From Haemophilus influenzae (GTDB lineage Bacteria; Pseudomonadota; Gammaproteobacteria; Enterobacterales; Pasteurellaceae): 64,000 nucleotides of DNA. The DNA lies in contig NZ_LS483411.1 of the NCBI RefSeq assembly GCF_900475755.1, positions 682,001-746,000 on the forward strand, in the 5' to 3' direction. Of this stretch, positions 44,976-58,536 are shown piece by piece. The notes under the pieces were generated by a model. That model ran no database searches, was not told the DNA's origin, and worked only from the letters and a program-made list of their open reading frames with translations. How positions within the stretch are numbered: the stretch's first letter is position 1; each line of letters starts with the position of its first letter. Both the position numbers and the translations under genes were made by a program.

Positions 44976-45857
44976 ATGCGAAATTCATTCAAAATTATGA
45001 CCGCACTTGCACTTGGTTTATTTGCAATGCAAGCTAACGCAAAATTTAAAGTCGTCACCACTTTTACCGTGATTCAAGATATTGCGCAAAATGTGGCAGG
45101 CAATGCAGCAACAGTGGAATCTATTACCAAACCAGGTGCTGAAATTCACGAATATGAACCAACGCCAAAAGACATTGTAAAAGCACAATCTGCCGATTTA
45201 ATTTTATGGAACGGCTTAAATTTGGAACGTTGGTTTGAGCGTTTCTTCCAAAATGTTAAAGATAAACCTGCTGTGGTAGTAACAGAAGGTATTCAACCAT
45301 TATCTATTTATGAAGGCCCGTATAAAGATGCGCCTAATCCACACGCTTGGATGTCGCCATCTAATGCTTTAATTTATATTGAAAATATTAAGAATGCGTT
45401 AGTGAAATACGATCCACAAAATGCAGCTGTGTATGAAAAAAATGCCGCTGACTATGCTCAAAAAATTAAACAACTTGATGAACCGCTTCGTGCAAAATTA
45501 GCACAAATTCCTGAAGAGCAACGCTGGCTTGTAACAAGTGAGGGTGCTTTCAGTTATTTGGCGAAAGATTACAATTTAAAAGAAGGTTATTTATGGCCAA
45601 TCAATGCTGAACAACAAGGCACACCACAACAAGTGCGTAAAGTGATTGATTTAGTTCGTAAAAACAATATTCCTGTTGTGTTTAGTGAAAGTACAATTTC
45701 AGCCAAACCTGCACAACAAGTAGCCAAAGAAAGTGGCGCAAAATACGGCGGTGTGTTGTATGTTGATTCACTTTCTGCGAAAAACGGCCCTGTGCCAACT
45801 TATATTGATTTGCTTAACGTTACTGTATCAACCATTGTTAAAGGATTCGGAAAATAA
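44976..45857 (+). CDS. yfeA: Iron/manganese ABC importer, substrate-binding protein (YfeA/SitA-like)
   Basis: Cluster A-I (ZnuA/PsaA/YfeA) binding protein of 293 residues with signal peptide ending QANA. Metal ligands are expected in [20 protein letters not shown], the [11 protein letters not shown] block and the Asp in LYVDSL. The lack of a His-rich loop argues against zinc. USS codons ATGACCGCACTT lie within the signal peptide. Its stop shares one base with the next gene. First of four genes forming a complete chelated-iron/Mn importer. Confidence 0.88.
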
Positions 45858-46777
45858 TGGACTCTTTCTCGACATCAATTTGGGTTAATGATGTAACTGT
45901 TCGTTACAACAATGGTCATACTGCAATTCACAATATGACGTTCTCACTCAATAGTGGAACTATTTGTGCATTAGTGGGTGTGAATGGCAGTGGCAAGTCC
46001 ACATTATTTAAAAGCATAATGGGGCTTGTGAAGCCACAACAAGGTGAAATTAAACTTTGTGATTTGCCAATTTCCCAAGCACTGAAACGTAATTTGGTTG
46101 CTTATGTACCACAATCAGAAGAAGTGGACTGGCAATTTCCAGTGTCAGTGTATGATGTCGTGATGATGGGGCGTTATGGGTATATGAATTTTCTTCGTAT
46201 CCCCAAAGCGATTGATAAACAAAAAGTTCAAGAGGCGATGCAGCGAGTAAATATTGAGCATCTTGCGCATCGTCAAATTGGCGAGTTATCTGGCGGGCAG
46301 AAAAAACGCGTGTTTTTAGCCCGCGCTTTAGCACAACAAAGTCCAATTATTTTATTGGATGAACCTTTCACTGGCGTTGATGTGAAAACTGAAAATGCCA
46401 TAGTTGATCTTCTTCAACAGCTTCGAGAAGAAGGTCATCTGATTCTTGTCTCAACTCATAACTTAGGTTCTGTTCCTGATTTTTGTGATCAAGTGGTAAT
46501 GATTAATCGCACGGTCATCGCCGCAGGAAAAACAGAAGATACCTTTAACCAACATAATTTGGAAATTGTATTTGGTGGGGTGTTACGTCATATTAAATTA
46601 TTGGGCGAAAATTTACATAATGATGAAGATAAACGTTCTGTTACCGTCTTAACAGATGATGAAAAAGCCGTTGTATTCTATGGCGAAACTAAGCAAGATC
46701 CACCTGCGCCAACAACACAGGATTGCCATTTTGAAGATTGCCCTTATAAAAGTGCGGTTAAAAATAAGAGGGATTAG
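45857..46777 (+). CDS. yfeB: Iron/manganese ABC importer ATP-binding protein
   Basis: ATPase subunit, 306 residues. Walker [10 protein letters not shown] at 41-49, signature [15 protein letters not shown] near 138, Walker [14 protein letters not shown] near 158. A C-terminal extension of about 80 residues ends in a short Cys/His-containing tail ([12 protein letters not shown]). It overlaps yfeA by one base and lies 3 bases before the first permease gene. Confidence 0.9.
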
Positions 46778-46780
46778 GTA

Positions 46781-47629
46781 ATGTTAGATTTATTGCTCGA
46801 ACCTTTTTCCTATGATTATATGCTCAAGGCGATGATTTTGAGTACCGCAGTGGGTGGCATTTGTGCTTTTTTGTCTTCATATTTAATGCTTAAAGGCTGG
46901 TCTTTGATTGGCGATGCGCTTTCTCATTCCGTTGTGCCTGGTGTTGCAATTGCCTATGCTTTTGCGTTGCCTTATGCACTTGGTGCATTTTTTGCAGGTA
47001 TTTTTGCCGCACTTTCTATTCTTTGGATTAAATCCATTTCTAAACTGAAAGAAGATGCCATTATCGGGTTTATTTTCAGTACTTTCTTTGCATTAGGTCT
47101 ATTGCTCATTTCTTTAAATCCAACCGCAGTAAATGTGCACAATATCATTTTAGGTAATATTTTAGGCATTGCTGATGAAGATATTTACCAAGTCGCAATT
47201 ATTATCGGTGTTTGTTTAGTATTGCTTTTATTGTTCTGGAAAGACTTATTACTGATCTTTTTTGATGAAACACAGGCAAGAACAGTAGGGCTTTCGCCAT
47301 TATTTTATAAGGTTTTATTTTTTACTTTATTAAGTGCTTGTGTGGTAGCTGCATTGCAAACTGTGGGTGCTATTTTAGTGATTGCGATGGTTATTACCCC
47401 TGGCGCAACGGCATATTTACTCACTGATAAATTCAAAACTTTGTCAATCATCGCTATTATTTTAGGCGCAGTGACAAATTTTGTTGGGGTCTATATTAGC
47501 TATTATTTAGACGGTGCCACTGGCGGTGTGATTGTGACATTGCAAACATTATTGTTTTTAGTCGCTTTCTTATTTTCACCAAAATATGGCTTACTCACAC
47601 GTAATAAAAAGGCGGTAGAAAATGTTTGA
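46781..47629 (+). CDS. yfeC: Iron/manganese ABC importer permease 1
   Basis: ABC-3 family permease, 282 residues with eight or nine membrane helices. Family segments: LMLKGWSLIGDALSHSVVPGVAIAY near 35-60 and VGAILVIAMVITPGATAYLL near 195-215. Overlaps the second permease gene by eight bases. Confidence 0.9.
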   Translation: MLDLLLEPFSYDYMLKAMILSTAVGGICAFLSSYLMLKGWSLIGDALSHSVVPGVAIAYAFALPYALGAFFAGIFAALSILWIKSISKLKEDAIIGFIFSTFFALGLLLISLNPTAVNVHNIILGNILGIADEDIYQVAIIIGVCLVLLLLFWKDLLLIFFDETQARTVGLSPLFYKVLFFTLLSACVVAALQTVGAILVIAMVITPGATAYLLTDKFKTLSIIAIILGAVTNFVGVYISYYLDGATGGVIVTLQTLLFLVAFLFSPKYGLLTRNKKAVENV

Positions 47630-48437
47630 TTGGCTTTTAGAACCGCTACAATTTGAGTTTATGCAAAATGCCTTATTGACCGCATTGATTGTTTCGATTA
47701 TCTGTGCATTACTTTCTTGCTATTTAGTCTTGAAAGGTTGGTCATTAATGGGCGATGCAATTTCTCACGCTGTATTACCTGGTATTGTACTCGCTTATTT
47801 GGCAGGAATTCCTTTAGCCATTGGTGCATTTTTCTCAGGCATTTTTTGCTCCCTTGGTGTGGGATATTTAAAAGAAAATAGTCGCATAAAAGAAGATACT
47901 GCAATGGGCATTGTATTTTCTGGAATGTTTGCCATTGGTCTTGTTATGTTCACCAAAATTCAAACAGAACAGCATTTAACCCATATTTTGTTTGGTAATG
48001 TGTTGGGTGTAAGTCATCAAGAGGTTATTCAAAGTGCGGTCATTTCTGCGATAATTTTTTGTCTGATTGTTTTCAAACGTAAAGACTTTCTGCTTTATTG
48101 TTTTGACCCAAGCCACGCCCGTGTTGCAGGGCTTTCTCCAAAAGTTTTACATTATGGTTTATTAATTCTACTTGCTTTAACCATTGTAAGCACGATGCAA
48201 GTGGTAGGTGTTATTTTGGTGGTGGCAATGTTAATTGCGCCAGGAATTACCGCACTTACGCTTACTAAATCTTTTGATAAAATGCTATGGATTGCTATTG
48301 TCAGCTCCATCACATCAAGTCTAATTGGCGTAATATTGAGCTATCATTTTGATGCCTCAACTGGTGCTTGTATCATTCTTCTGCAAGCCGCATTTTTTGT
48401 TATAGCGTTAGCTTATAGCAAGATTAGAACAATATGA
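47622..48437 (+). CDS. yfeD: Iron/manganese ABC importer permease 2
   Basis: Second ABC-3 permease, 271 residues, clearly a paralog of the preceding protein (LVLKGWSLMGDAISHAVLPGIVLAY and VGVILVVAMLIAPGITALTLT). Two distinct permeases are typical of YfeCD/SitCD systems. Last gene; a hairpin terminator follows 14 bases later. Confidence 0.9.
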   Translation: MFDWLLEPLQFEFMQNALLTALIVSIICALLSCYLVLKGWSLMGDAISHAVLPGIVLAYLAGIPLAIGAFFSGIFCSLGVGYLKENSRIKEDTAMGIVFSGMFAIGLVMFTKIQTEQHLTHILFGNVLGVSHQEVIQSAVISAIIFCLIVFKRKDFLLYCFDPSHARVAGLSPKVLHYGLLILLALTIVSTMQVVGVILVVAMLIAPGITALTLTKSFDKMLWIAIVSSITSSLIGVILSYHFDASTGACIILLQAAFFVIALAYSKIRTI

Positions 48438-48451
48438 TTTCCTATCTTTTG

Positions 48452-48485
48452 AAAACGGTGCAAGCTTAATGTTTGTGCCGTTTTT
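48452..48485 (+). terminator. Terminator of the yfeABCD-like operon
   Basis: AAAACGG pairs with CCGTTTT, extended by G-U-containing pairs TGCAA/TTGTG, followed by TTTTTATT. Confidence 0.8.
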
Positions 48486-48721
48486 ATTCGATGAAATATT
48501 CTTTCAACTTCCACAAGGTATTTATTTTATATAAGCCATTCTTTATCTTATTTGATATTCCTAATATTAAATCCTTATAGTAAACCCTCACAAAAATTTT
48601 GCTTAAAAGAGAAACATCAAAATTAATAACGATAAACTCAACGCAGTGTACTTTTTAATATCTACTGTTTTAACTATTTTAAAAAAGACTTTAGATTGTT
48701 TTATTCGATTTTAGAACAAAC
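48486..48721. other. AT-rich non-coding DNA at a probable rearrangement junction
   Basis: No gene, RNA or repeat is evident in these 236 bases apart from the flanking terminators. The gene blocks on either side are far apart in the Rd KW20 order as I recall it. Confidence 0.5.
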
Positions 48722-48751
48722 AAAAAAGCGAATCTTTCGATTCGCTTTTTT
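48722..48751. terminator. Bidirectional terminator at ompP2 3' end
   Basis: AAAAAAGCGAATC pairs with GATTCGCTTTTTT; A and T tracts on both sides suit termination of ompP2 from the minus strand. Confidence 0.9.
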
Positions 48752-48773
48752 AAGTATGCCTTCTAACAAATAA

Positions 48774-49895
48774 TTAGAAGTAAACGCGTAAACCTACACC
48801 AACTGATTTTTCTTTTTCAGTTCTTACTTGACTCTTATTAGCATCCTTTGTAGTTGTTCTAGTTCTAGAGTAAGCACCTTCAATATAGGTTAATACTTGT
48901 TTGTGAAGTTTATGATCTATACCGAATAACACTGCGTGTTCACGTTCTTTCTCACCTTGATCTACTTTATGTTCATATTTGAAGTTACCATAGAAATTAG
49001 TATCTTCCATTAATTCATATTGGAAACCTGGAGATACGAAATAGCTTTTTTCGTGTTTAGCTTTATACTTTTTAGTTTTTGCATAGCCGCTATCTAGAGA
49101 GACTAATAAGCCTAAATCACTAAAACGGTAACCTAAACTAGCTAAAGCACCATTTACTTCTTGTTTTTTACCTTGGTAGTCGTAAGTTGTTGTTGTTGTT
49201 GTTGTTGTTGTCTTATCAGTGTCTTTATAATTTGTAAGACCGTAAGCAATAGCTACAATAATGTTGTTAGCATCATATTTTGCACCAACTTGAATTCCGT
49301 TACTGACTTCACCTACAGTTACTTCACCAGAGTTCAACCCAATACGAGGAGCCGTCTGTACATCACGTTCTTGTGCTAATAAATAATTAGCGCCTAATAC
49401 TAAACCATCAATACCATTAAAAGTATAGCCAACGGTGTTACCATTAGTAGGGATATATTTTTTAGAGTTGAGAAGACCATATTCTTTATCTTCTGCGGTT
49501 GTAATTTCATCAGCAATAGTTTTTGCGCGACCAAGTTTTACTTCACCGAATGTGTTATTTCCTAAAGTAACATAAGCATATTTGGTTGCAATATCAGCGA
49601 AGTGATCTGACTTCTTTTTAGTGTAATCTGAAACAAAACGAGTTTCTAAATAACCTTGTGCATAGAAGCCGTCACCAAGGTTATGCGTTGCTTTAATATG
49701 GAAACGTGAACCCTGATTACGTAATGTACCGTGTTGCTGTTTTTGATCATCTTCAGTGCTAGTGCTTTGTTCCGCAATAACGCTTAAACGACCGCCTAAT
49801 TCTACTTTAGTCCCTTCGTTGTTATAAACAACAACTGCGTTTGCTGCTGAAGCTGCGAATGCACCAACGATTAATGCTGCAAGTGTTTTTTTCAT
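48774..49895 (-). CDS. ompP2: Major porin, outer membrane protein P2
   Basis: Trimeric general porin of Haemophilus and the most abundant surface protein; it also lets NAD-type nucleotides pass. 373 residues, signal peptide [20 protein letters not shown], then mature [20 protein letters not shown] and a C-terminal barrel strand ending VGVGLRVYF. The loop near residues 235-243 is a run of nine threonines encoded by eight ACA triplets plus ACT. Strain-variable loops are typical of P2. A CRP-like site and a TTGACA -35 lie upstream. Confidence 0.93.
49186..49209. repeat. Trinucleotide repeat (GTT)8 in ompP2
   Basis: Eight GTT units on the plus strand, read as ACA (Thr) in ompP2. Because the unit is three bases, slippage would change loop length without breaking the frame. 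Confidence 0.95.
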
Positions 49896-50003
49896 AATTT
49901 GTATTCCTTATGCTTGTTTACTATCTATGATTGAACTTTTCTCCAATAGAATTGTCCAATCGCCAAAATAGACGAGCTGCATCTTTGCAAAAAAAATTTT
50001 TGA

Positions 50004-50009
50004 TGTCAA
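50004..50009 (-). promoter_or_regulatory. Probable -35 element of ompP2 promoter
   Basis: TTGACA on the minus strand, 109 bases before the ompP2 start. With a 17-base spacer the -10 would be AAAGAT at 49986-49981, a weak match. Confidence 0.45.
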
Positions 50010-50036
50010 TACTCCAAAATTTTAATTTTCTTGAAA

Positions 50037-50052
50037 TCTGATCGAGATCACA
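50037..50052. promoter_or_regulatory. CRP-type site upstream of ompP2
   Basis: TCTGATCGAGATCACA matches 14 of 16 positions of the CRP consensus TGTGATCTAGATCACA. Its centre is about 70 bases upstream of the inferred ompP2 transcription start, a class I position. Confidence 0.6.
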
Positions 50053-50151
50053 CTTTTCAAATGAATTTGATTGTTTTTTATTCTGTTTTAGGTTTAAGTA
50101 TTACCTATAAATATTTTAGGTATCGAAAAATATGACGTTATATCAGTTGTA

Positions 50152-50616
50152 TTATTCTTCTATGTACCCCATATCTTCCTCCGTGGGATTTTCTGCCCCT
50201 TTTTTTGCTAATTCATCGCAAATTTCATTTTCTCTATGCCCTGCGTGTCCTTTCACCCATTGCCAATTAATTTTATGACGTTGGATGGATTCATCTAAGG
50301 CTTTCCACAAATCTTGGTTTTTTACAGGCTTTCCAGAACTTGCTTTCCAATTATTTTTTTTCCAATTAAAGATCCATTTTGTGATGCCATTTTTCATATA
50401 TTGGCTATCACTATAAAGCGTGATCAAGCAAGGTTCTTTTAATGCATTTAATGCTTCAATGACAGCGCGTAATTCCATTCGATTATTGGTGGTTTTGAAA
50501 TAACCTTTGGAGAGCATTTTTTCATGTTGTTTATAGCGTAATACGGCGCCAATTCCCCCCGCCCCTGGATTACCTAAGCAAGAGCCATCAGTAAAAATTT
50601 CAATCTGTTTTTGCAT
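50152..50616 (-). CDS. rnhA: Ribonuclease HI
   Basis: Degrades RNA in RNA-DNA hybrids; 154 residues from ATG 50614-50616 ([18 protein letters not shown]). Catalytic D10, E48 ([12 protein letters not shown]) and D70 (LYSDSQYM) in the usual spacing, and the handle region [16 protein letters not shown]. The divergent rnhA/dnaQ arrangement with a 60-base gap is the same as in E. coli. A longer in-frame start would overlap dnaQ. Confidence 0.96.
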
Positions 50617-50676
50617 AACAAAAAGGTTGTTGTGTAGAATGACAAGTATTTTAATGGAAAGAGATAGGTTGAACAA

Positions 50677-51447
50677 ATGATTAATCCCAATCGCCAAATT
50701 GTATTAGATACTGAAACTACAGGTATGAATCAGCTTGGCGCGCATTATGAAGGACACTGCATTATTGAAATTGGTGCAGTTGAATTAATAAATCGTCGTT
50801 ACACAGGTAATAATTTCCATATTTACATTAAGCCAGATCGCTCTGTTGATCCTGATGCGATTAAAGTTCATGGCATAACCGATGAAATGTTAGCGGATAA
50901 ACCTGAATTCAAAGAAATTGCCCAAGATTTTTTGGATTATATTAATGGTGCGGAATTGCTTATTCATAATGCGCCCTTTGATGTTGGATTTATGGATTAT
51001 GAATTTCGTAAACTTGACCTCAATGTGAAAACTGACGATATTTGTTTGGTGACAGATACGCTACAAATGGCGCGTCAAATGTATCCTGGAAAACGTAATA
51101 ATTTGGACGCACTTTGTGATCGTTTAGGTATTGATAATAGCAAACGTACTTTGCACGGTGCGTTACTGGATGCCGAGATCTTGGCGGATGTTTATTTGAT
51201 GATGACGGGGGGGCAAACAAATTTATTCGATGAAGAAGAATCGATTGAGTCTGAAGTTATCCATGTTGTGCAAGAAACAGTGGCAGAAGAAATAAAAAGT
51301 GCGGTAGATTTTGCACACAATTTAAAATTACTTCAACCTACTGATGATGAGCTACAAGCGCATTTAGAATTATTAAAGATGATTAATAAAAAAAGTGGAA
51401 ATAATTGTCTTTGGGATAAACGATTTGGCAATGACAATGTTCATTAA
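50677..51447 (+). CDS. dnaQ: DNA polymerase III epsilon subunit (proofreading exonuclease)
   Basis: 3'-5' exonuclease of the replicase, 256 residues. DEDDh motifs: Exo[10 protein letters not shown] near 10-18, Exo[17 protein letters not shown] near 96, Exo[23 protein letters not shown] near 160. The clamp-binding segment QTNLFDEEE follows near 182 and a C-terminal alpha-binding region completes it. Confidence 0.97.
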
Positions 51448-51491
51448 TCGTTTGGAATTTAAGCAGGTAAGTAAAATTTAATAAAAAAAGA

Positions 51492-51520
51492 TTGACGAGA
51501 TTTGTGTTCATCATTAAGAT
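51492..51520 (+). promoter_or_regulatory. Promoter of the tRNA-Asp pair
   Basis: TTGACG (51492-51497), 17-base spacer, TAAGAT (51515-51520), about 15 bases before the first tRNA-Asp. Confidence 0.7.
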
Positions 51521-51534
51521 ACGCACCACTTAGC

Positions 51535-51611
51535 GGAGTGGTAGTTCAGCTGGTTAGAATACCTGCCTGTCACGCAGGGGGTCGCGGGTTCGAGTCCCGT
51601 CCATTCCGCCA
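51535..51611 (+). tRNA. tRNA-Asp (GUC), copy 1
   Basis: 77 bases with encoded CCA; anticodon loop CTGTCAC gives GUC; acceptor arms GGAGTGG and CCATTCC. Nearly identical to E. coli tRNA-Asp. Confidence 0.97.
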
Positions 51612-51634
51612 ATTTAAAATTAATATCTTATCTC

Positions 51635-51711
51635 GGAGTGGTAGTTCAGCTGGTTAGAATACCTGCCTGTCACGCAGGGGGTCGCGGGTTCGAGTCCCGT
51701 CCATTCCGCCA
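51635..51711 (+). tRNA. tRNA-Asp (GUC), copy 2
   Basis: Identical in sequence to copy 1, separated by 23 bases, so a tandem duplication in one transcript. Confidence 0.97.
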
Positions 51712-51729
51712 ATTAAGATAAATAAAGAT

Positions 51730-51750
51730 AGCACCTAATGGTGCTTTTTT
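51730..51750 (+). terminator. Terminator of the tRNA-Asp transcript
   Basis: AGCACC and GGTGCT around TAAT, followed by a T run. Confidence 0.85.
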
Positions 51751-51772
51751 GTATCTGAAATTTGCTTCATCC

Positions 51773-51801
51773 TTGACAAAAATAAAGTAAACTTTTAAGA
51801 T
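51773..51801 (+). promoter_or_regulatory. Promoter of the antisense RNA opposite the Ibs-like peptide
   Basis: Perfect -35 TTGACA (51773-51778), 17-base spacer, -10 TAAGAT (51796-51801). The expected start is near 51808. There is no plus-strand gene before der (52130), so the transcript would run antisense through the 19-codon peptide gene. It shares its -10 sequence with the tRNA-Asp promoter. Confidence 0.7.
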
Positions 51802-51844
51802 TTGAAGAACTAGGGAGCTGCATACTCCCTAGTATGTTGTCTTA

Positions 51845-51904
51845 TTAGTAAGCGTGCTGGCTCACTAATAATAAAACGACAACAAGGATAATGAGTTTAA
51901 TCAT
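51845..51904 (-). CDS. Ibs-like type I toxin peptide, 19 residues
   Basis: ATG at 51904-51902 to TAA, with Shine-Dalgarno GAGGAT eight bases upstream. The peptide MIKLIILVVVLLLVSQHAY has one charged residue (Lys3), a solid hydrophobic core and a short polar tail ending AY. From memory, E. coli Ibs toxins are 18-19 residues with the same plan (M-(M)-(R/K)-L-V-I-I-L-...-L-L-L-I-S-x-x-A-Y). They depolarise the membrane when not silenced by cis-antisense Sib RNA. Upstream on the minus strand is TATAAT at 51982-51977 and a leader with two stable hairpins. A strong plus-strand promoter lies opposite. Too small for standard gene callers; family assignment rests on pattern, not a search. Confidence 0.7.
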   Translation of the reverse strand: MIKLIILVVVLLLVSQHAY

Positions 51905-51923
51905 TTTCTTATCCTCTTCAAAC

Positions 51924-51941
51924 GTTGCGAAAAAGCGCAAC
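51924..51941. other. Leader hairpin 1 of the Ibs-like gene
   Basis: GTTGCG and CGCAAC around AAAAAG; perfect 6-base stem just upstream of the ribosome site, present in both sense and antisense transcripts. Confidence 0.7.
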
Positions 51942-51942
51942 A

Positions 51943-51973
51943 CTCGCTTTCAAGTTGTATTCTTGAAAGCGAG
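51943..51973. other. Leader hairpin 2 of the Ibs-like gene
   Basis: CTCGCTTTCAAG and CTTGAAAGCGAG, perfect 12-base arms with a 7-base loop. On the minus strand it would be at the very 5' end of the peptide mRNA. On the plus strand it is a possible terminator of the antisense RNA, though followed by ATTATTAT rather than a pure T run. Confidence 0.75.
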
Positions 51974-51976
51974 ATT

Positions 51977-51982
51977 ATTATA
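51977..51982 (-). promoter_or_regulatory. -10 element (TATAAT) for the Ibs-like mRNA
   Basis: Consensus TATAAT on the minus strand, with a poor -35 (TTTATT) 17 bases upstream. Start expected near 51970. Confidence 0.5.
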
Positions 51983-52015
51983 ACGTTAAGTTATAGATAA
52001 ATAAACAGTGTTTAG

Positions 52016-52050
52016 AAAGCCATAGGATTGTATCCTGTGGCTTTTTCTTT
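52016..52050 (+). terminator. Strong terminator upstream of der
   Basis: AAAGCCATAGGAT and ATCCTGTGGCTTT pair (one G-U) around TGT and run into TTCTTTT. No plus-strand gene lies between the tRNA-Asp terminator and here, so it needs another transcript to terminate. The antisense RNA is the obvious candidate. Confidence 0.85.
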
Positions 52051-52129
52051 TCTTTATGAAATCATTTTTTACCAATCCTTTAACTTCCGATATAATAGCC
52101 GCCATTTTTGACAAAATAAGAGATTTTTT

Positions 52130-53644
52130 ATGGCAACTCCAGTCGTCGCCCTTGTTGGTCGCCCGAATGTGGGAAAATCCACATTATTTAATCGCCTTAC
52201 TCGTACACGAGATGCGTTAGTCGCTGATTTTCCAGGTTTAACTCGTGATAGAAAATATGGTCACGCACATATTGCTGGCTATGATTTTATTGTTATTGAT
52301 ACTGGCGGTATTGATGGAACGGAAGAGGGCGTAGAAGAAAAAATGGCGGAGCAATCTTTGCTTGCTATTGATGAAGCGGATATTGTTCTTTTCCTTGTGG
52401 ATGCTCGTGCAGGTTTAACGGCAGCTGATATGGGTATTGCTAATTATTTACGCCAACGTCAAAACAAAATTACTGTGGTGGTGGCAAATAAAACTGATGG
52501 TATCGATGCGGATTCTCATTGTGCTGAATTTTATCAGTTAGGTTTAGGGGAAATTGAGCAAATCGCAGCTTCACAAGGCCGTGGTGTCACTCAATTAATG
52601 GAACAAGTGCTTGCGCCTTTTGCGGAACAAATGGAAAACGTTGATGAAAATGACCGCACTTCTGAGGAAGAACAAGACGAATGGGAACAAGAATTCGATT
52701 TTGATTCAGAAGAAGATACGGCATTAATTGATGATGTGTTAGACGAAGAACTTGAAGAAGAACAAGATAAAAATATCAAAATTGCCATTGTTGGTCGTCC
52801 AAATGTGGGTAAATCTACTTTAACCAATCGTATTTTAGGTGAAGATCGTGTGGTGGTTTTTGATATGCCAGGTACGACACGCGATAGTATTTATATTCCA
52901 ATGGAGCGTGATGGGCAGCAATATACCTTGATTGATACGGCGGGTGTGCGTAAACGCGGTAAGGTGCATTTGGCAGTGGAAAAATTCTCCGTGATTAAAA
53001 CCTTGCAAGCGATTCAAGATGCTAATGTTGTGTTATTGACTATTGACGCGAGAGAGAACATTTCTGATCAGGATTTATCTTTGCTCGGCTTTATTTTAAA
53101 TGCAGGTCGTTCTTTAGTGATCGTCGTGAATAAATGGGATGGTTTGGATCAAGATGTGAAAGATCGTGTGAAATCTGAGCTTGATCGTCGTTTAGATTTT
53201 ATTGATTTTGCTCGCGTGCATTTTATTTCCGCCTTGCACGGCAGTGGTGTAGGTAATCTTTTTGATTCGATTAAAGAAGCCTATGCTTGTGCAACTCAAA
53301 AAATGACGACCTCGCTTTTAACTCGTATTTTACAAATGGCAACGGACGAGCACCAACCCCCGATGATTGGCGGTCGTCGAATTAAATTAAAATATGCCCA
53401 TCCAGGTGGTTATAATCCGCCGATTATAGTGGTTCACGGTAACCAAATGGATAAATTACCAGATTCTTATAAACGTTATTTATCTAATTATTATCGTAAG
53501 AGTTTGAAAATTATTGGTTCACCGATTCGTCTTCTTTTCCAAGAAGGCTCAAACCCATTTGCAGGACGCAAAAATAAACTCACTCCGAACCAATTGCGTA
53601 AACGTAAACGTTTGATGAAGTTTATTAAGAAAGCGAAACGTTAA
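52130..53644 (+). CDS. der: Ribosome assembly GTPase Der (EngA)
   Basis: Essential double GTPase for 50S subunit maturation, 504 residues. G domain 1 has GRPNVGKST near 10, DTGGIDG near 60 and NKTDG near 120. An acidic linker near 168-206 precedes G domain 2 with GRPNVGKST near 222, DTAGVRKRG near 270 and NKWDG near 335. The C-terminal KH-like domain ends in a basic tail. Single-gene unit ended by a USS-pair terminator. Confidence 0.97.
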
Positions 53645-53674
53645 ATTCGAGATAGATAAAACTTAGACAGATTT

Positions 53675-53727
53675 AACCGCACTTTTAAAACTCTTTTTGG
53701 AGAACTAAAGTGCGGTTATTTTTTTAT
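53675..53727. terminator. USS-pair terminator between der and the MFS gene
   Basis: AACCGCACTTT (53675-53685) and AAAGTGCGGTT (53707-53717) are perfect complements and are followed by a T tract. Typical inverted uptake-signal terminator between converging genes. Confidence 0.85.
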
Positions 53728-54914
53728 TTGTTTTGCAGAAGAAAGGTATGGCGATATTTTAAGTGCGTTGTAATAAAAATGATGAAACCGATTAAACCTA
53801 ATGCTGCGCCCGTATAACCGATTTCGTTTAATCCTAAATAGGTTGTCGCAAGATTTCCAAATAATGCGCCTGCACCAATTCCTGCATTGAAAATTCCCGA
53901 GTAAATAGCCGTAGCAATATCGGTTGCATCTGGTGCAAGTTTTAGTACGCGCATTTGTAGGGATAGTCCGATACAAGAAATGCCAATCCCCCAAATAAAC
54001 ACAAGACAGAACATTGCTATCATTGTTTCGGTTGAAAATAACAGGAGTAATAGAGAGAACACTAATAAACCCATTGAAAAAACAATAAATTTTGTCGGCG
54101 CAAATCGGTAGAATCTGTTAAATAATAGACTTGCGGCAATACCTGAGAAACCAAAAACTAATAAAACCACAGTGGCAAAATTTGGATCTAAATGCCCTAC
54201 ATCAATCATGAATGGTTCGATATAAGTATAAGCGGTAAAGTGTGCTGAAATGACGATTGCCGTTGTTACATAAAGCCAAAGTAATAATGGGCGTTTTGCA
54301 AGCAAGGGTAAACTTGCAATAGAGCCAGCATTTTTACTGGGTAAATTTGGCAATAATCGAATAATTAAAAACATGATGGATAATGCCAGTGCGGCAATGA
54401 TTCCAAAAGTGACCCGCCAACCGACGAGTTGCCCGACAATGCGTCCAATAGGTAAGCCTAAGATGGTGGCAAGTGCGGTGCCAATAGCGAGCATTCCTAA
54501 TGCTTGAGTTTTCTTGTGTTTAGGTGCGATGCGCATCACAAGTGAAGCGGTAATTGACCAAAACACTGAATGGGCTAATGCAATACACATTCGAGCGAGA
54601 AGTAATATCCAGAAATTCCAAGCAATGACCGATAAAATATGCCCAACGATAAATATAATGAAAAGTTTGATTAGCAGGCTTTTACGTTCCATATTGCCGG
54701 TGGCAAGCATGGCTGGTAAAGACATAATTAGCACCGTCCACGCATAAACTGTCATCATTAAACCAGTATTGGCGGTTTGCATATTAAAACTTTGTGCAAT
54801 ATCGCTTAACATTGCAACGGGTACAAATTCTGTAGTATTAAAAATAAATCCTGCGCAAGCCATAATAAACACGCGCCACGATTGAATTTTTTCAGCTTTT
54901 AAATATAACGACAT
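53724..54914 (-). CDS. MFS transporter, SotB-like sugar efflux family
   Basis: 396 residues with twelve membrane helices. The N-terminal NTTEFVPVAMLSDIAQSF and the motif-A-like region near 70 (GNMERKSLL) match the SotB/YdhP branch of major facilitators, which export arabinose-like sugars or small molecules. The real substrate cannot be told from sequence. Its start overlaps the end of the AsmA-like gene by one base, indicating one operon. Confidence 0.8.
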   Translation of the reverse strand: MSLYLKAEKIQSWRVFIMACAGFIFNTTEFVPVAMLSDIAQSFNMQTANTGLMMTVYAWTVLIMSLPAMLATGNMERKSLLIKLFIIFIVGHILSVIAWNFWILLLARMCIALAHSVFWSITASLVMRIAPKHKKTQALGMLAIGTALATILGLPIGRIVGQLVGWRVTFGIIAALALSIMFLIIRLLPNLPSKNAGSIASLPLLAKRPLLLWLYVTTAIVISAHFTAYTYIEPFMIDVGHLDPNFATVVLLVFGFSGIAASLLFNRFYRFAPTKFIVFSMGLLVFSLLLLLFSTETMIAMFCLVFIWGIGISCIGLSLQMRVLKLAPDATDIATAIYSGIFNAGIGAGALFGNLATTYLGLNEIGYTGAALGLIGFIIFITTHLKYRHTFLLQNK

Positions 54915-56089
54915 TAACGTAACTTTTCTTTAATCGCATCAATTAATTGATGGCGGAATTTTTTCGTAAAATTAATTTTATATTGTGGAGAATTGCAGTT
55001 ACCAAAAAAATTGATTGGCAGGGTTAAATTTTGATAGCGTTGATCCGTAGAATTTAAATTAATATCCACATTGCATTCCATTCGATTTAAATCAATGATT
55101 CCTTTCCCTTGCCCCAAAAGTGCGGGTGTTTTTAATTCAATTTTTTCAGCAATAAGTTGATTTTGTTGGAGAAATAATTGTAAGTGAAATTGTTCAAAGC
55201 GAGTGTTTAACTCTTTGTTTTTTAACAAATCATTGTTGTAATTAATCGGGAAATATTGCGCTACCATATCCAATAGATTTACACCAAGAATTTCGCCATT
55301 TTGCGCTAAAAAATTTAATTTGCCTTGAATAAGCGAGGAAGATGAAAAGCTGAAATCAAGATCAAAATCAGCGTGTCCACTTAACACTTCTGGCAAATTT
55401 AATAGTGCGAACAAGCGTTTAACGGGGAAAGTTTTGCCTGAAAAATTGACCGCACTTTGGTTGCCAATTTGTTGATATTTCAATACAGCTAAACAATCGT
55501 TATCGCATTGTGGTTTTATATAGGTCACTATTTGTTGGTGGGCTGTGTGGGTTTCAATATAACCGATAGGCTGATTATTTAGGTTTGCATCTACAAATTG
55601 AAGTAGGGCTGATTCTGATGTTGAGAAGTCTAAATTTGCTTTATGGAAAGAAAAATGGAAAGTTTTTGTTTTTCCATAAATAGGTTTATTAAATTCAATG
55701 CGAATATGGTTTTCGCCATTCAATATTACTTTTTTTGATAAAAGCTGTTTTAACGAAAAAGGCGAAACCTCTATGGATACATTGGCAGGATTTTGTGTGT
55801 TTTGAGTTAATTTGAGCTGTTGAATATTCAGTGAATGAAGTGCGGTATTACCATACAAAAGAGGCAAAAAATTAAATTTAGCTTCAATTTTTTGAGCTGA
55901 AAATTGCGTAGTTTTTATATTTTCAAGGGAAAGTGCGGGAGAAAATAATGATAAATTGACGGATTGAACGGCAATGTTTTGTTGTGCCAGTTGTTCACTA
56001 ATGGAACTTTGCACTCGATAAAGTTGAATATATAAAAAAGAAAAGATCGCCAAAGCGACGATCCCTACGACAAGCACGAACTTTTTCAT
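54914..56089 (-). CDS. AsmA-like envelope protein
   Basis: 391 residues: N-terminal membrane anchor near 5-25 and a large periplasmic beta-rich region. The AsmA-type entry segment is QNIAVQSVNLSLFSPALSLENIKTTQFSAQKIEAKF, and the C-terminal IDLNRMECNVDINLNSTDQRY block resembles AsmA/TamB repeats. Proteins of this superfamily move or organise phospholipids between membranes, but this short member is not characterised to my knowledge. Located between dcd and the MFS gene; E. coli also has asmA next to dcd and udk. Confidence 0.78.
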   Translation of the reverse strand: MKKFVLVVGIVALAIFSFLYIQLYRVQSSISEQLAQQNIAVQSVNLSLFSPALSLENIKTTQFSAQKIEAKFNFLPLLYGNTALHSLNIQQLKLTQNTQNPANVSIEVSPFSLKQLLSKKVILNGENHIRIEFNKPIYGKTKTFHFSFHKANLDFSTSESALLQFVDANLNNQPIGYIETHTAHQQIVTYIKPQCDNDCLAVLKYQQIGNQSAVNFSGKTFPVKRLFALLNLPEVLSGHADFDLDFSFSSSSLIQGKLNFLAQNGEILGVNLLDMVAQYFPINYNNDLLKNKELNTRFEQFHLQLFLQQNQLIAEKIELKTPALLGQGKGIIDLNRMECNVDINLNSTDQRYQNLTLPINFFGNCNSPQYKINFTKKFRHQLIDAIKEKLR

Positions 56090-56092
56090 TGA

Positions 56093-56680
56093 TTATTCCT
56101 TGTCTTCGTCAATTCGACTGGCTACCGCACTTTGTTGATTTTTATATTTTGCATCTTTGCGGCTACTGTATGGTCGTTTTGCTTCGCCACTTAATACTTC
56201 AAAACTTAACGCACCAATGACCATATTTGGGCGTAATGCTAATGGTAATTTCCCTGAATTATAAAATTCCAGCACGATTTTTCCTTCCCAACCTGGGTCA
56301 ATGCGGTGTGCTGTGACGTGTACCATTAAGCCTAAACGGGCTAAAGAAGAACGACCATCTAACCAACCGATAATATTGGCGGGTAATTTCACGGATTCAA
56401 GTGTTGTTGCTAACGCTAAAGTACCAGGATGCAAGAAAAATGCTTCCCCCTCTGGAATAATAATTTCATCGCTCATTACCGATTCAAGCTGGGCGGATAC
56501 TTCTTCTTTCGGGCCACTTAAATCAATAAAAGGCGCAGAATGTTCACGAAATACACGGAAAGAATTACCCAAGCGAACATCAATCGTCGCACCGTTGATT
56601 TTGTCATTATTTGGACGAGGTGTTAAAGAAATAATGCCATCATCGAGATAGCGTTCAATATCAGTATCGCAAAGACGCAT
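56093..56680 (-). CDS. dcd: dCTP deaminase
   Basis: Produces dUTP for thymidylate synthesis; 195 residues (E. coli 193). Signature segments: [42 protein letters not shown] with the catalytic Glu in [10 protein letters not shown]. Eight bases after udk. Confidence 0.96.
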
Positions 56681-56688
56681 AAGATTTC

Positions 56689-57330
56689 CTATTTTTGATT
56701 CAATAAATGAAGAATTTGAGCTTTTAACATATTGATTGCAATGCGGTTTTTGCCACCGCGAGGAATGACAATATCCGCATATTGTTTAGACGGCTCAATA
56801 AATTGTAAGAACATTGGACGCACGGTTGCACGATATTGATCAATCACCGATTGTAGAGAGCGACCACGTTCTTCCATATCGCGTTGTAAACGGCGGATGA
56901 AGCAAATATCAAGTGGTGTGTCTACGAATACAGAAATATCGGCTAATTGACGTACTCTTTCGTCTGTGAGCAATAAAATCCCTTCTAAAATTACGATTCG
57001 TTTTGGTGTGAAATGCGTTGTTTCGTTGGTGCGAGTATGTTCTACATAGCTATAAACAGGCACATCTACGGCACTGCCATTTTTTAGATTTTTTAAATGT
57101 TGGATAAGTAAATCGCGATCCATAGAGTTTGGATGATCGTAATTCGTTTTTACGCGCTCAGTCATTTCTAAATGACTTTGATCTTTATAGTAACTGTCTT
57201 CAGTAATGATACCAATTTCTTGGCAGCCTAATTCATTGCAGAGTTCTTTGTGAACGGTGGAAGCGATAGAACTTTTGCCTGATGCAGATGCACCTGTGAT
57301 GGCGATAATGATACAAGAGGGATTTGACAT
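56689..57330 (-). CDS. udk: Uridine kinase
   Basis: Phosphorylates uridine and cytidine in pyrimidine salvage; 213 residues, same as E. coli, from ATG 57328-57330 ([13 protein letters not shown]). P-loop GASASGKSS near 14-22, YDHPNSMD near 67, [17 protein letters not shown] near 130. A start 11 codons earlier is less likely. First gene of the udk-dcd-asmA-like-MFS operon, preceded by an uptake signal. Confidence 0.95.
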
Positions 57331-57495
57331 AATCGTGTTTCGATGTAAGGAAAATTCGTGCAATTATAAAGAAAAGTGCGGTGAATTTCACGTTTATTTT
57401 TTTATCCAAATTTCAAAAAGTGTGAGCTTCATCACGGTATTATTTCTATTTTTCAAGTAGGATTCGAGCATCCTATCCAATAAGGAGTATGTATT

Positions 57496-58536
57496 ATGAA
57501 ATTCAACAAAATTTCTCTTTCTGTTTCTACCGCACTTTTAGCAGCAGGATTGGCTATTTCTGGTTCTGCTAACGCTAAAGGTCGTTTAGTTGTTTACTGT
57601 AGTGCCACCAATATTTTGTGCGAAACCACCACGAAAGCGTTCGGCGAAAAATATGATGTGAAAACATCCTTTATTCGTAATGGTTCAGGCAGTACTTTTG
57701 CCAAAGTTGAAGCTGAAAAAAATAACCCTCAAGCGGATGTTTGGTTCGGCGGTACTTTTGACCCTCAAGCTCAAGCTGCAGAATTAGGCTTAATTGAGCC
57801 TTATAAATCCAAACACATTGATGAAATCGTAGAACGTTTCCGTGATCCTGCGAAAACCAAAGGTCACTATGTTTCCTCAATCTATATGGGAATCTTAGGT
57901 TTCGGTGTGAATACTGAACGTTTGGCAAAATTAGGCATTAAAGAAGTGCCAAAATGCTGGAAAGACCTAACAGATCCGCGCTTAAAAGGCGAAGTTCAAA
58001 TTGCAGACCCTCAAAGTGCGGGTACTGCTTATACCGCATTGGCAACTTTCGTCCAATTATGGGGCGAAAAAGAGGCATTCGATTTCCTAAAAGCGTTACA
58101 TCCTAATGTTTCTCAATATACCAAATCGGGTATCACGCCATCACGTAACTCTGCGCGTGGCGAAGCGACAATTGGGGTAGGTTTCTTACACGATTATGCT
58201 TTAGAAAAACGCAATGGTGCGCCATTAGAATTAGTTGTGCCGTGTGAAGGAACGGGCTATGAATTAGGTGGTGTGAGTATCTTAAAAGGTGCGCGTAATA
58301 TTGATAATGCAAAATTATTCGTCGATTGGGCGTTATCAAAAGAAGGTCAAGAATTAGCTTGGAAACAAGGGGATTCGTTACAAATCTTAACTAACACGAC
58401 TGCAGAACAATCGCCAACTGCATTTGATCCAAATAAACTTAAATTAATCAATTATGACTTTGAAAAATACGGTGCAACAGAACAACGCAAAGCCTTAATT
58501 GAAAAATGGGTACAAGAAGTTAAATTAGCGAAATAG
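57496..58536 (+). CDS. afuA: Periplasmic binding protein of Fe3+/phosphosugar-type ABC importer (AfuA)
   Basis: 346 residues, signal peptide with the USS-encoded segment STALLAAGLAISGSANA. It is an iron-binding-protein-like member of the type II periplasmic proteins (VVYCSATNILCETTTKAFGEKYDVKTSFIRNGSGSTFAKVEAEK, WFGGTFDPQAQAAELGLIEPY). The Actinobacillus AfuABC was first called an iron transporter and later shown to carry sugar phosphates. The lack of an obvious Tyr-Tyr iron pair fits the sugar-phosphate view. Downstream lies a hairpin-rich region before afuB. Confidence 0.85.
   Translation: MKFNKISLSVSTALLAAGLAISGSANAKGRLVVYCSATNILCETTTKAFGEKYDVKTSFIRNGSGSTFAKVEAEKNNPQADVWFGGTFDPQAQAAELGLIEPYKSKHIDEIVERFRDPAKTKGHYVSSIYMGILGFGVNTERLAKLGIKEVPKCWKDLTDPRLKGEVQIADPQSAGTAYTALATFVQLWGEKEAFDFLKALHPNVSQYTKSGITPSRNSARGEATIGVGFLHDYALEKRNGAPLELVVPCEGTGYELGGVSILKGARNIDNAKLFVDWALSKEGQELAWKQGDSLQILTNTTAEQSPTAFDPNKLKLINYDFEKYGATEQRKALIEKWVQEVKLAK

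Follow-up and report, generated by a model that had tools for sequence, protein, structure and literature searches.

The Ibs/Sib family of type I toxin-antitoxin loci is known chiefly from E. coli and its relatives. In another system, hok/sok, the toxin is larger and there is a second frame in the leader, and the locus studied here can be likened to it by description only. What is common in principle is the concealment of the Shine-Dalgarno (SD) sequence by a far-downstream anti-SD, as cited for hok/sok in a passage of PMC6733600. The same passage describes a comparable arrangement for aapA/IsoA of Helicobacter pylori, where 5'-3' long-distance pairing in the toxin mRNA hides the SD; this likeness, too, concerns the working principle only. 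For the E. coli system itself, the parts of the literature consulted describe membrane depolarisation caused by IbsC (PMC8309996), a longer and a shorter form of Sib, and likely blocking of ribosome binding by Sib pairing at the start region (PMC4147584).

An Ibs/Sib-like locus next to tRNA-Asp

The window, i.e., the whole stretch of 64,000 nucleotides analysed, covers positions 682001-746000 of a single-contig Haemophilus influenzae genome of 1,834,484 bases. A sequence-only reading had placed a candidate Ibs/Sib locus between tRNA-Asp and der. This placement holds: a tandem pair of identical tRNA-Asp genes (51535-51611 and 51635-51711) adjoins the locus on one side, and a frame starting at 52130 lies on the other. 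We take this frame to be der from the earlier reading and from its own sequence rather than from a profile search. The minus-strand 19-codon frame with its SD and upstream TATAAT, as well as the opposing plus-strand promoter, are all present, and the coordinates and letters given earlier for the frame, the SD and the plus-strand promoter proved correct (Table 1).

Table 1. Features of the Ibs/Sib-like locus (positions within the window)
Feature	Position	Strand	Basis or remark
19-codon Ibs-like toxin frame MIKLIILVVVLLLVSQHAY	51848..51904	-	frame, conservation, PF13956, pN/pS
Shine-Dalgarno GAGGAT of the toxin frame	51911..51916	-	identical in 10/10 genomes of the genus
-10 TATAAT, presumed toxin mRNA	51977..51982	-	weak -35
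Hairpin HP1, presumed 5' end of toxin mRNA	51943..51973	-	fold, variation
Hairpin HP2 (GTTGCGC...GCAAC), immediately upstream of SD	51924..51941	-	fold, variation
SD-side arm GTTTGAAGAG of predicted long-range lock	51914..51923	-	fold, covariation
3'UTR arm TTCTTCAAAT (anti-SD) of predicted lock	51800..51809	-	35-44 nt past stop
Hairpin HP3 over C-terminal codons and stop, TTATTAGTGAGC...GCTTACTAATAA	51842..51871	both	fold
Hairpin HP4, ACTAGGGAG...CTCCCTAGT	51809..51833	both	near putative antisense 5' end; toxin 3'UTR
RF00113 SIB_RNA match, promoter included in model	51773..51919	+	49.1 bits, 1-147 of 147
Promoter TTGACA-17-TAAGAT of Sib-like antisense RNA	51773..51801	+	consensus, conservation, SIB_RNA
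Putative Sib-like antisense RNA	51808..52046	+	start ~51808; end 52014-52046 or earlier 51943-51973
Terminator-like hairpin followed by CTTTTCTTTA	52014..52046	+	suits antisense RNA

The toxin frame starts with ATG at 51904-51902 and ends with TAC (51850-51848) and the stop codon TAA (51847-51845), directly followed by a second TAA (51844-51842). An upstream GTG extension (MLRFFATFEEDKK) was rejected as the start: it is open in the genus, yet missing from most other loci compared. At 17-nt spacing the -35 of the toxin promoter has only three of six matches; the toxin mRNA would start near 51970.

The antisense promoter has 10 of 12 consensus matches, and the distance from the toxin stop to the end of its -10 is 43 nt. 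The region 51400-52500 contains six promoter-like sites (2.7 expected) and five terminator-like sites (1.0 expected). Since the tRNA operon has a terminator-like site of its own (51730-51745), the strong one further downstream suits the antisense RNA; between the two, no other plus-strand gene needing that terminator was seen. The antisense RNA would be about 240 nt long, with a shorter end being possible. Unlike E. coli Sib, it may thus extend to a terminator some 240 nt from its start.

The plus strand matches the Rfam SIB_RNA model over its full length (E 7.9e-9), with the antisense promoter in register, and all 19 residues of the peptide match the Pfam Ibs_toxin profile PF13956 (E 0.0083). 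These two matches support the membership in Ibs/Sib that the earlier reading had proposed. As the scores lie under both curated cut-offs (16.5 bits versus 27 for PF13956 and 49.1 versus a gathering score of 56 for SIB_RNA), a cut-off being the curators' annotation convention rather than a biological definition, we consider the locus a divergent homologue of E. coli ibs/sib, as supported by sequence homology. Rfam at the gathering score reports just the two tRNAs over 45000-58000, with SIB_RNA below threshold, and NCBIfam profiles give no Ibs match to the peptide. SIB_RNA also weakly matches the minus strand (20.5 bits, E 0.08), which we attribute to a palindromic hairpin within the frame. With PF13956 at E 10 the locus is the sole match in the window's genome, a search which is unspecific because 11 of 14 control genomes also have matches at this level; this locus was matched in all 10 genomes of the genus, in none over the cut-off. 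Weak matches to SNARE, RC1041, trpB, HrrF, snR3 and ctRNA were set aside.

Like E. coli ibs/sib, the locus has a hydrophobic peptide of 19 residues whose short tail ends in Y, an antisense promoter just past the toxin stop and an antisense sequence spanning the frame and SD. In contrast to the frames of the high-scoring family f18 (see below), which begin with MM, the Haemophilus peptide begins with MIK.

Taken as a whole, the locus is very probably a chromosomal type I toxin-antitoxin locus and a divergent ibs/sib homologue, comprising a structured toxin mRNA, a silencing antisense RNA and a predicted self-lock; its transcripts, toxicity, silencing and lock function are what we infer from these comparisons. 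By analogy with IbsC/Sib, the minus strand would give a structured mRNA encoding a hydrophobic peptide of 19 residues which, if made, would insert into the inner membrane and depolarise it. The plus strand would give an antisense RNA covering the whole frame, the SD and the leader, whose pairing would stop translation and probably lead to duplex decay. The toxin mRNA would also be self-locked, its SD bases pairing with the anti-SD past the stop and with its own frame start.

A 296-base query found a single match in every one of the 10 genomes of the genus. Loss of the frame where its flanks align, named in the sequence-only reading as the outcome that would speak against it, is not observed in these 10 genomes: frame and SD are intact, the ATG, 19 codons, double stop and GAGGAT being kept in every one (alignment in one orientation). 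Over the eight distinct frames pN/pS is 0.26 (pS 0.297, pN 0.077), only a rough guide because the antisense RNA overlaps the frame. Variable positions number 15 of 57 in the frame (6, 2 and 7 of 19 at codon positions 1, 2 and 3), none of 24 in the HP1 arms, 6 of 7 in the HP1 loop, none of 18 in HP2, 2 of 29 in the antisense promoter, 2 of 18 in the HP4 arms and 4 of 7 in the HP4 loop. The position adjoining tRNA-Asp is stable across the genus; the tandem tRNA-Asp pair is also found beside three named Haemophilus loci. By blastn, the window's genome has one copy of this locus type. A further blastn match, at G000:C1:905248, was discarded, as by eye it contains no such locus and resembles coding sequence.

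Related loci in the same genome and beyond the genus

Two further Ibs-like loci lie in the same genome outside the window. The first (1554299-1554559; L108, L197) has a 22-codon frame MPKLCIYIIIFVLLMLLSSPAY; homologous DNA with the frame is present in all 10 genomes of the genus, as is an antisense TTGAAG-17-TATAAT, and one copy ends with PAH. The second (1022839-1023089; L109, L207) encodes MIKIILMIIIGFLLLFFSSPAW and is matched at the DNA level in 7 of the 10 genomes, with two adjacent copies in one of them (G002). Four of its eight copies have a frame of this form, the others have MKIIFIIVIIFIVLLYSSPAW, one with T for I; no clear antisense promoter was found here by consensus. The SIB_RNA scores of the two loci are 28.0 bits (E 0.0014) and 24.0 bits (E 0.014), and since both stay short of E 0.01 when scanned separately with cmscan, we regard them as leads and not as settled members. 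Five genomes of the genus (L119, L121, L122, L123 and L125) contain another small frame, MIKLVIIILLCLLLKSSTGY, under weak SIB_RNA matches; the SIB_RNA list for the window's genome has no match of this kind.

With a threshold of E 0.1, SIB_RNA has 101 matches in the family, spread over 46 of 140 genomes and 20 of 43 genera. None of the 140 has a match over the gathering score, and 94 have none at E 0.1, stricter filters losing weak matches. The model is specific, as E. coli is the only one of 14 control genomes with a match. As a weak control, blastn at E 0.01 found 40 of the 140 genomes, fewer than SIB_RNA. In 394 genomes of the order, SIB_RNA at E 1e-4 matched 22: 11 of the window's family, five of family f18, whose matches are all over the gathering score, and six of family f27. 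In the latter, a third family of the order (genus g83, L093-L098), frames such as MKFKILILILLLLISSPAF and MK.KILILILLLLISSPAF lie under the SIB_RNA matches. A DNA pattern of the family, built for one subtype, matches 18 stretches in named genomes, including H. influenzae, H. aegyptius and H. haemolyticus, and also Actinobacillus, Mannheimia, Rodentibacter, Gallibacterium and Avibacterium. Three tandem Ibs-like frames about 500 bases apart were seen at one locus (L134, G082:C8:30000-32600).

An antisense hydrophobic mini-ORF in register accompanies 97 of the 101 SIB_RNA matches (all except L135, L150, L158 and L172), versus none of 101 on the same strand and one of at most 505 at random places. 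The rule (16-25 codons, hydrophobic, a G-rich site upstream, a start between 15 nt beyond the match end and 45 nt within it) was fixed after the frames had been inspected, and match and frame are not independent because the frame's antisense is part of the model. The 69 distinct 19-codon frames have S15 in 60, P17 in 60, A18 in 55 and Y19 in 61 cases, the last count being partly built in because frames were chosen for hydrophobicity and for ending in Y, F, W or C.

These data bear on what else the locus could be. It is improbable that it is an ibs/sib descendant which has ceased to act as a toxin, with another use for the structured RNA and with a peptide that is a relic or is benign in the membrane: the single copy of this type in the genome, its stable place beside tRNA-Asp and a passage reporting IbsB tested in Salmonella without clear effect (PMC4366850) would fit, but the frame, SD and double stop kept throughout the genus, the low pN/pS (rough as it is) and the recurrence of S15 and P17 argue against it. 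A plain intergenic sRNA or terminator pair with a chance frame opposite, to which the strong hairpins and the excess of terminator-like sites could point, is very unlikely given homology on both strands, the conserved frame and the in-register frames elsewhere. A leader peptide or attenuator of der can be dismissed almost entirely, for although the locus directly precedes der in the genus, its frame is on the opposite strand and it has homologues elsewhere, with tRNA-Asp within 8 kb of none of 15 named loci outside Haemophilus. L077, from another genus, is an exception to this absence, with an adjoining tRNA-Asp-like sequence recognised by eye.

The antisense promoter recurs with the frame. 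In the 80 non-redundant loci, the -10 of the best antisense promoter ends 38-56 nt past the stop in 73, versus 17.6 (sd 3.5, maximum 23) when the 3' regions were shuffled in 20 rounds, the 38-56 nt range having been chosen after data inspection. An exact antisense TTGACA occurs in 44 of them, versus 1.8 (sd 1.5, maximum 6).

In titles and abstract beginnings of the literature searched, Ibs/Sib is unreported from Haemophilus or Pasteurellaceae, and the main-text passages of related literature that we consulted assign ibs/sib solely to E. coli or Salmonella. The word Sib is absent from the main text of the sRNA literature found on Histophilus, Actinobacillus and Haemophilus; the Haemophilus study has a supplement with 86 intergenic transcripts. 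The sole text found with both Ibs and Pasteurella is a review on Hfq (PMC11858733). An earlier report of the Haemophilus locus is quite possible. What is added here, in part by inference, is the plus-strand terminator, the covarying SD complement and the two further Ibs-like loci. The toxin-antitoxin family is extended to Haemophilus and 20 of 43 sampled genera of its family, including multi-copy and tandem loci which fall below current profile cut-offs and probably escape gene callers too. The approximately 80 non-redundant loci can be used for comparative tests of Sib/ibs pairing, specificity and the long-range lock.

Predicted folding of the toxin mRNA and its long-range lock

The presumed toxin mRNA (51973-51795, minus strand) has a predicted folding energy of -74.3 kcal/mol versus -34.6 (sd 3.7) in 200 shuffles (z -10.8); the plus-strand RNA is likewise strongly structured (z -9.6 and -9.5). 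In the predicted mRNA fold, the SD is paired to the frame start and the bases preceding it to the 3'UTR. As a family-wide feature, the pairing of SD and frame start is not supported, since it is without covariation between groups (6,042 of 20,000 permutations).

The pairing with the 3'UTR recurs. A Watson-Crick partner of at least five bases for the SD region (-20 to -4) is found in the 3'UTR of 74 of the 80 loci versus 31.9 (sd 4.3) after shuffling, and a core of at least six in 59 versus 9.4 (sd 2.8) with shuffled 3'UTRs. The letters of the lock differ by group, e.g., GTTTGAAGAG/TTCTTCAAAT, AGGAACTG/CAGTTCCT and TGGAGCT/AGCTCCA. Over 22 SD groups, pairing of the SD with its own 3'UTR averages 15.1 versus 12.6 (sd 0.42) when 3'UTRs are reassigned among the groups, a value reached in none of 20,000 permutations, which serves as a guide only because the loci are related. 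In 18 of these groups own pairing is above the mean of the others, in one it ties and in three it is lower; it ranks first in only six. Both fold and covariation speak for a predicted SD/anti-SD lock.

Without the 3' arm, the SD region is predicted to be more open in 72 of 80 loci (mean openness 0.46, versus 0.23 with the arm). In the window's locus this measure rises from 0.03 to 0.42, but local pairing is predicted to keep GAGGAT itself largely closed (0.02 at full length, 0.04-0.17 when shortened). Of the 80 loci, 53 have a better fold on the mRNA strand than on the antisense strand. As to the strand on which the lock is selected, wobble counts of GU 6 and AC 10 favour neither; a looser count (GU 23, AC 55) leans to the antisense strand.

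As a drawing, the lock is not new, because in large part it is the Rfam model's closing stem seen on the other strand; pairing of the SD region with the 3'UTR is thereby also common to E. coli ibs/sib. A long-distance interaction of such kind is credited to the Sib paper, Han 2010, in a passage of PMC6733600. Seen from the plus strand, the 3' arm of the Haemophilus lock lies between the -10 and the putative antisense start, whereas at several other loci it lies inside the putative antisense RNA; an anti-SD mostly upstream of the putative antisense start is a difference from E. coli ibs/sib. Because the antisense RNA would start at the edge of the lock, the lock could act mainly on the toxin mRNA in Haemophilus.

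We tentatively suggest, at somewhat less than even confidence, that Ibs mRNAs are inert family-wide through this covarying lock, that its 3' arm is the start region of the antisense promoter and that promoter, lock and toxin start co-evolve as a module, the Haemophilus lock acting mainly on the toxin mRNA. Release might occur by 3' trimming, which a passage of PMC6733600 proposes for aapA, or by leader refolding.

The loop of HP3 contains codons 16-18, which are variable in the genus. In a suggestive reading of this variation, the variable hairpin loops might serve as target recognition domains, TRD1 in the frame and TRD2 in the start region.
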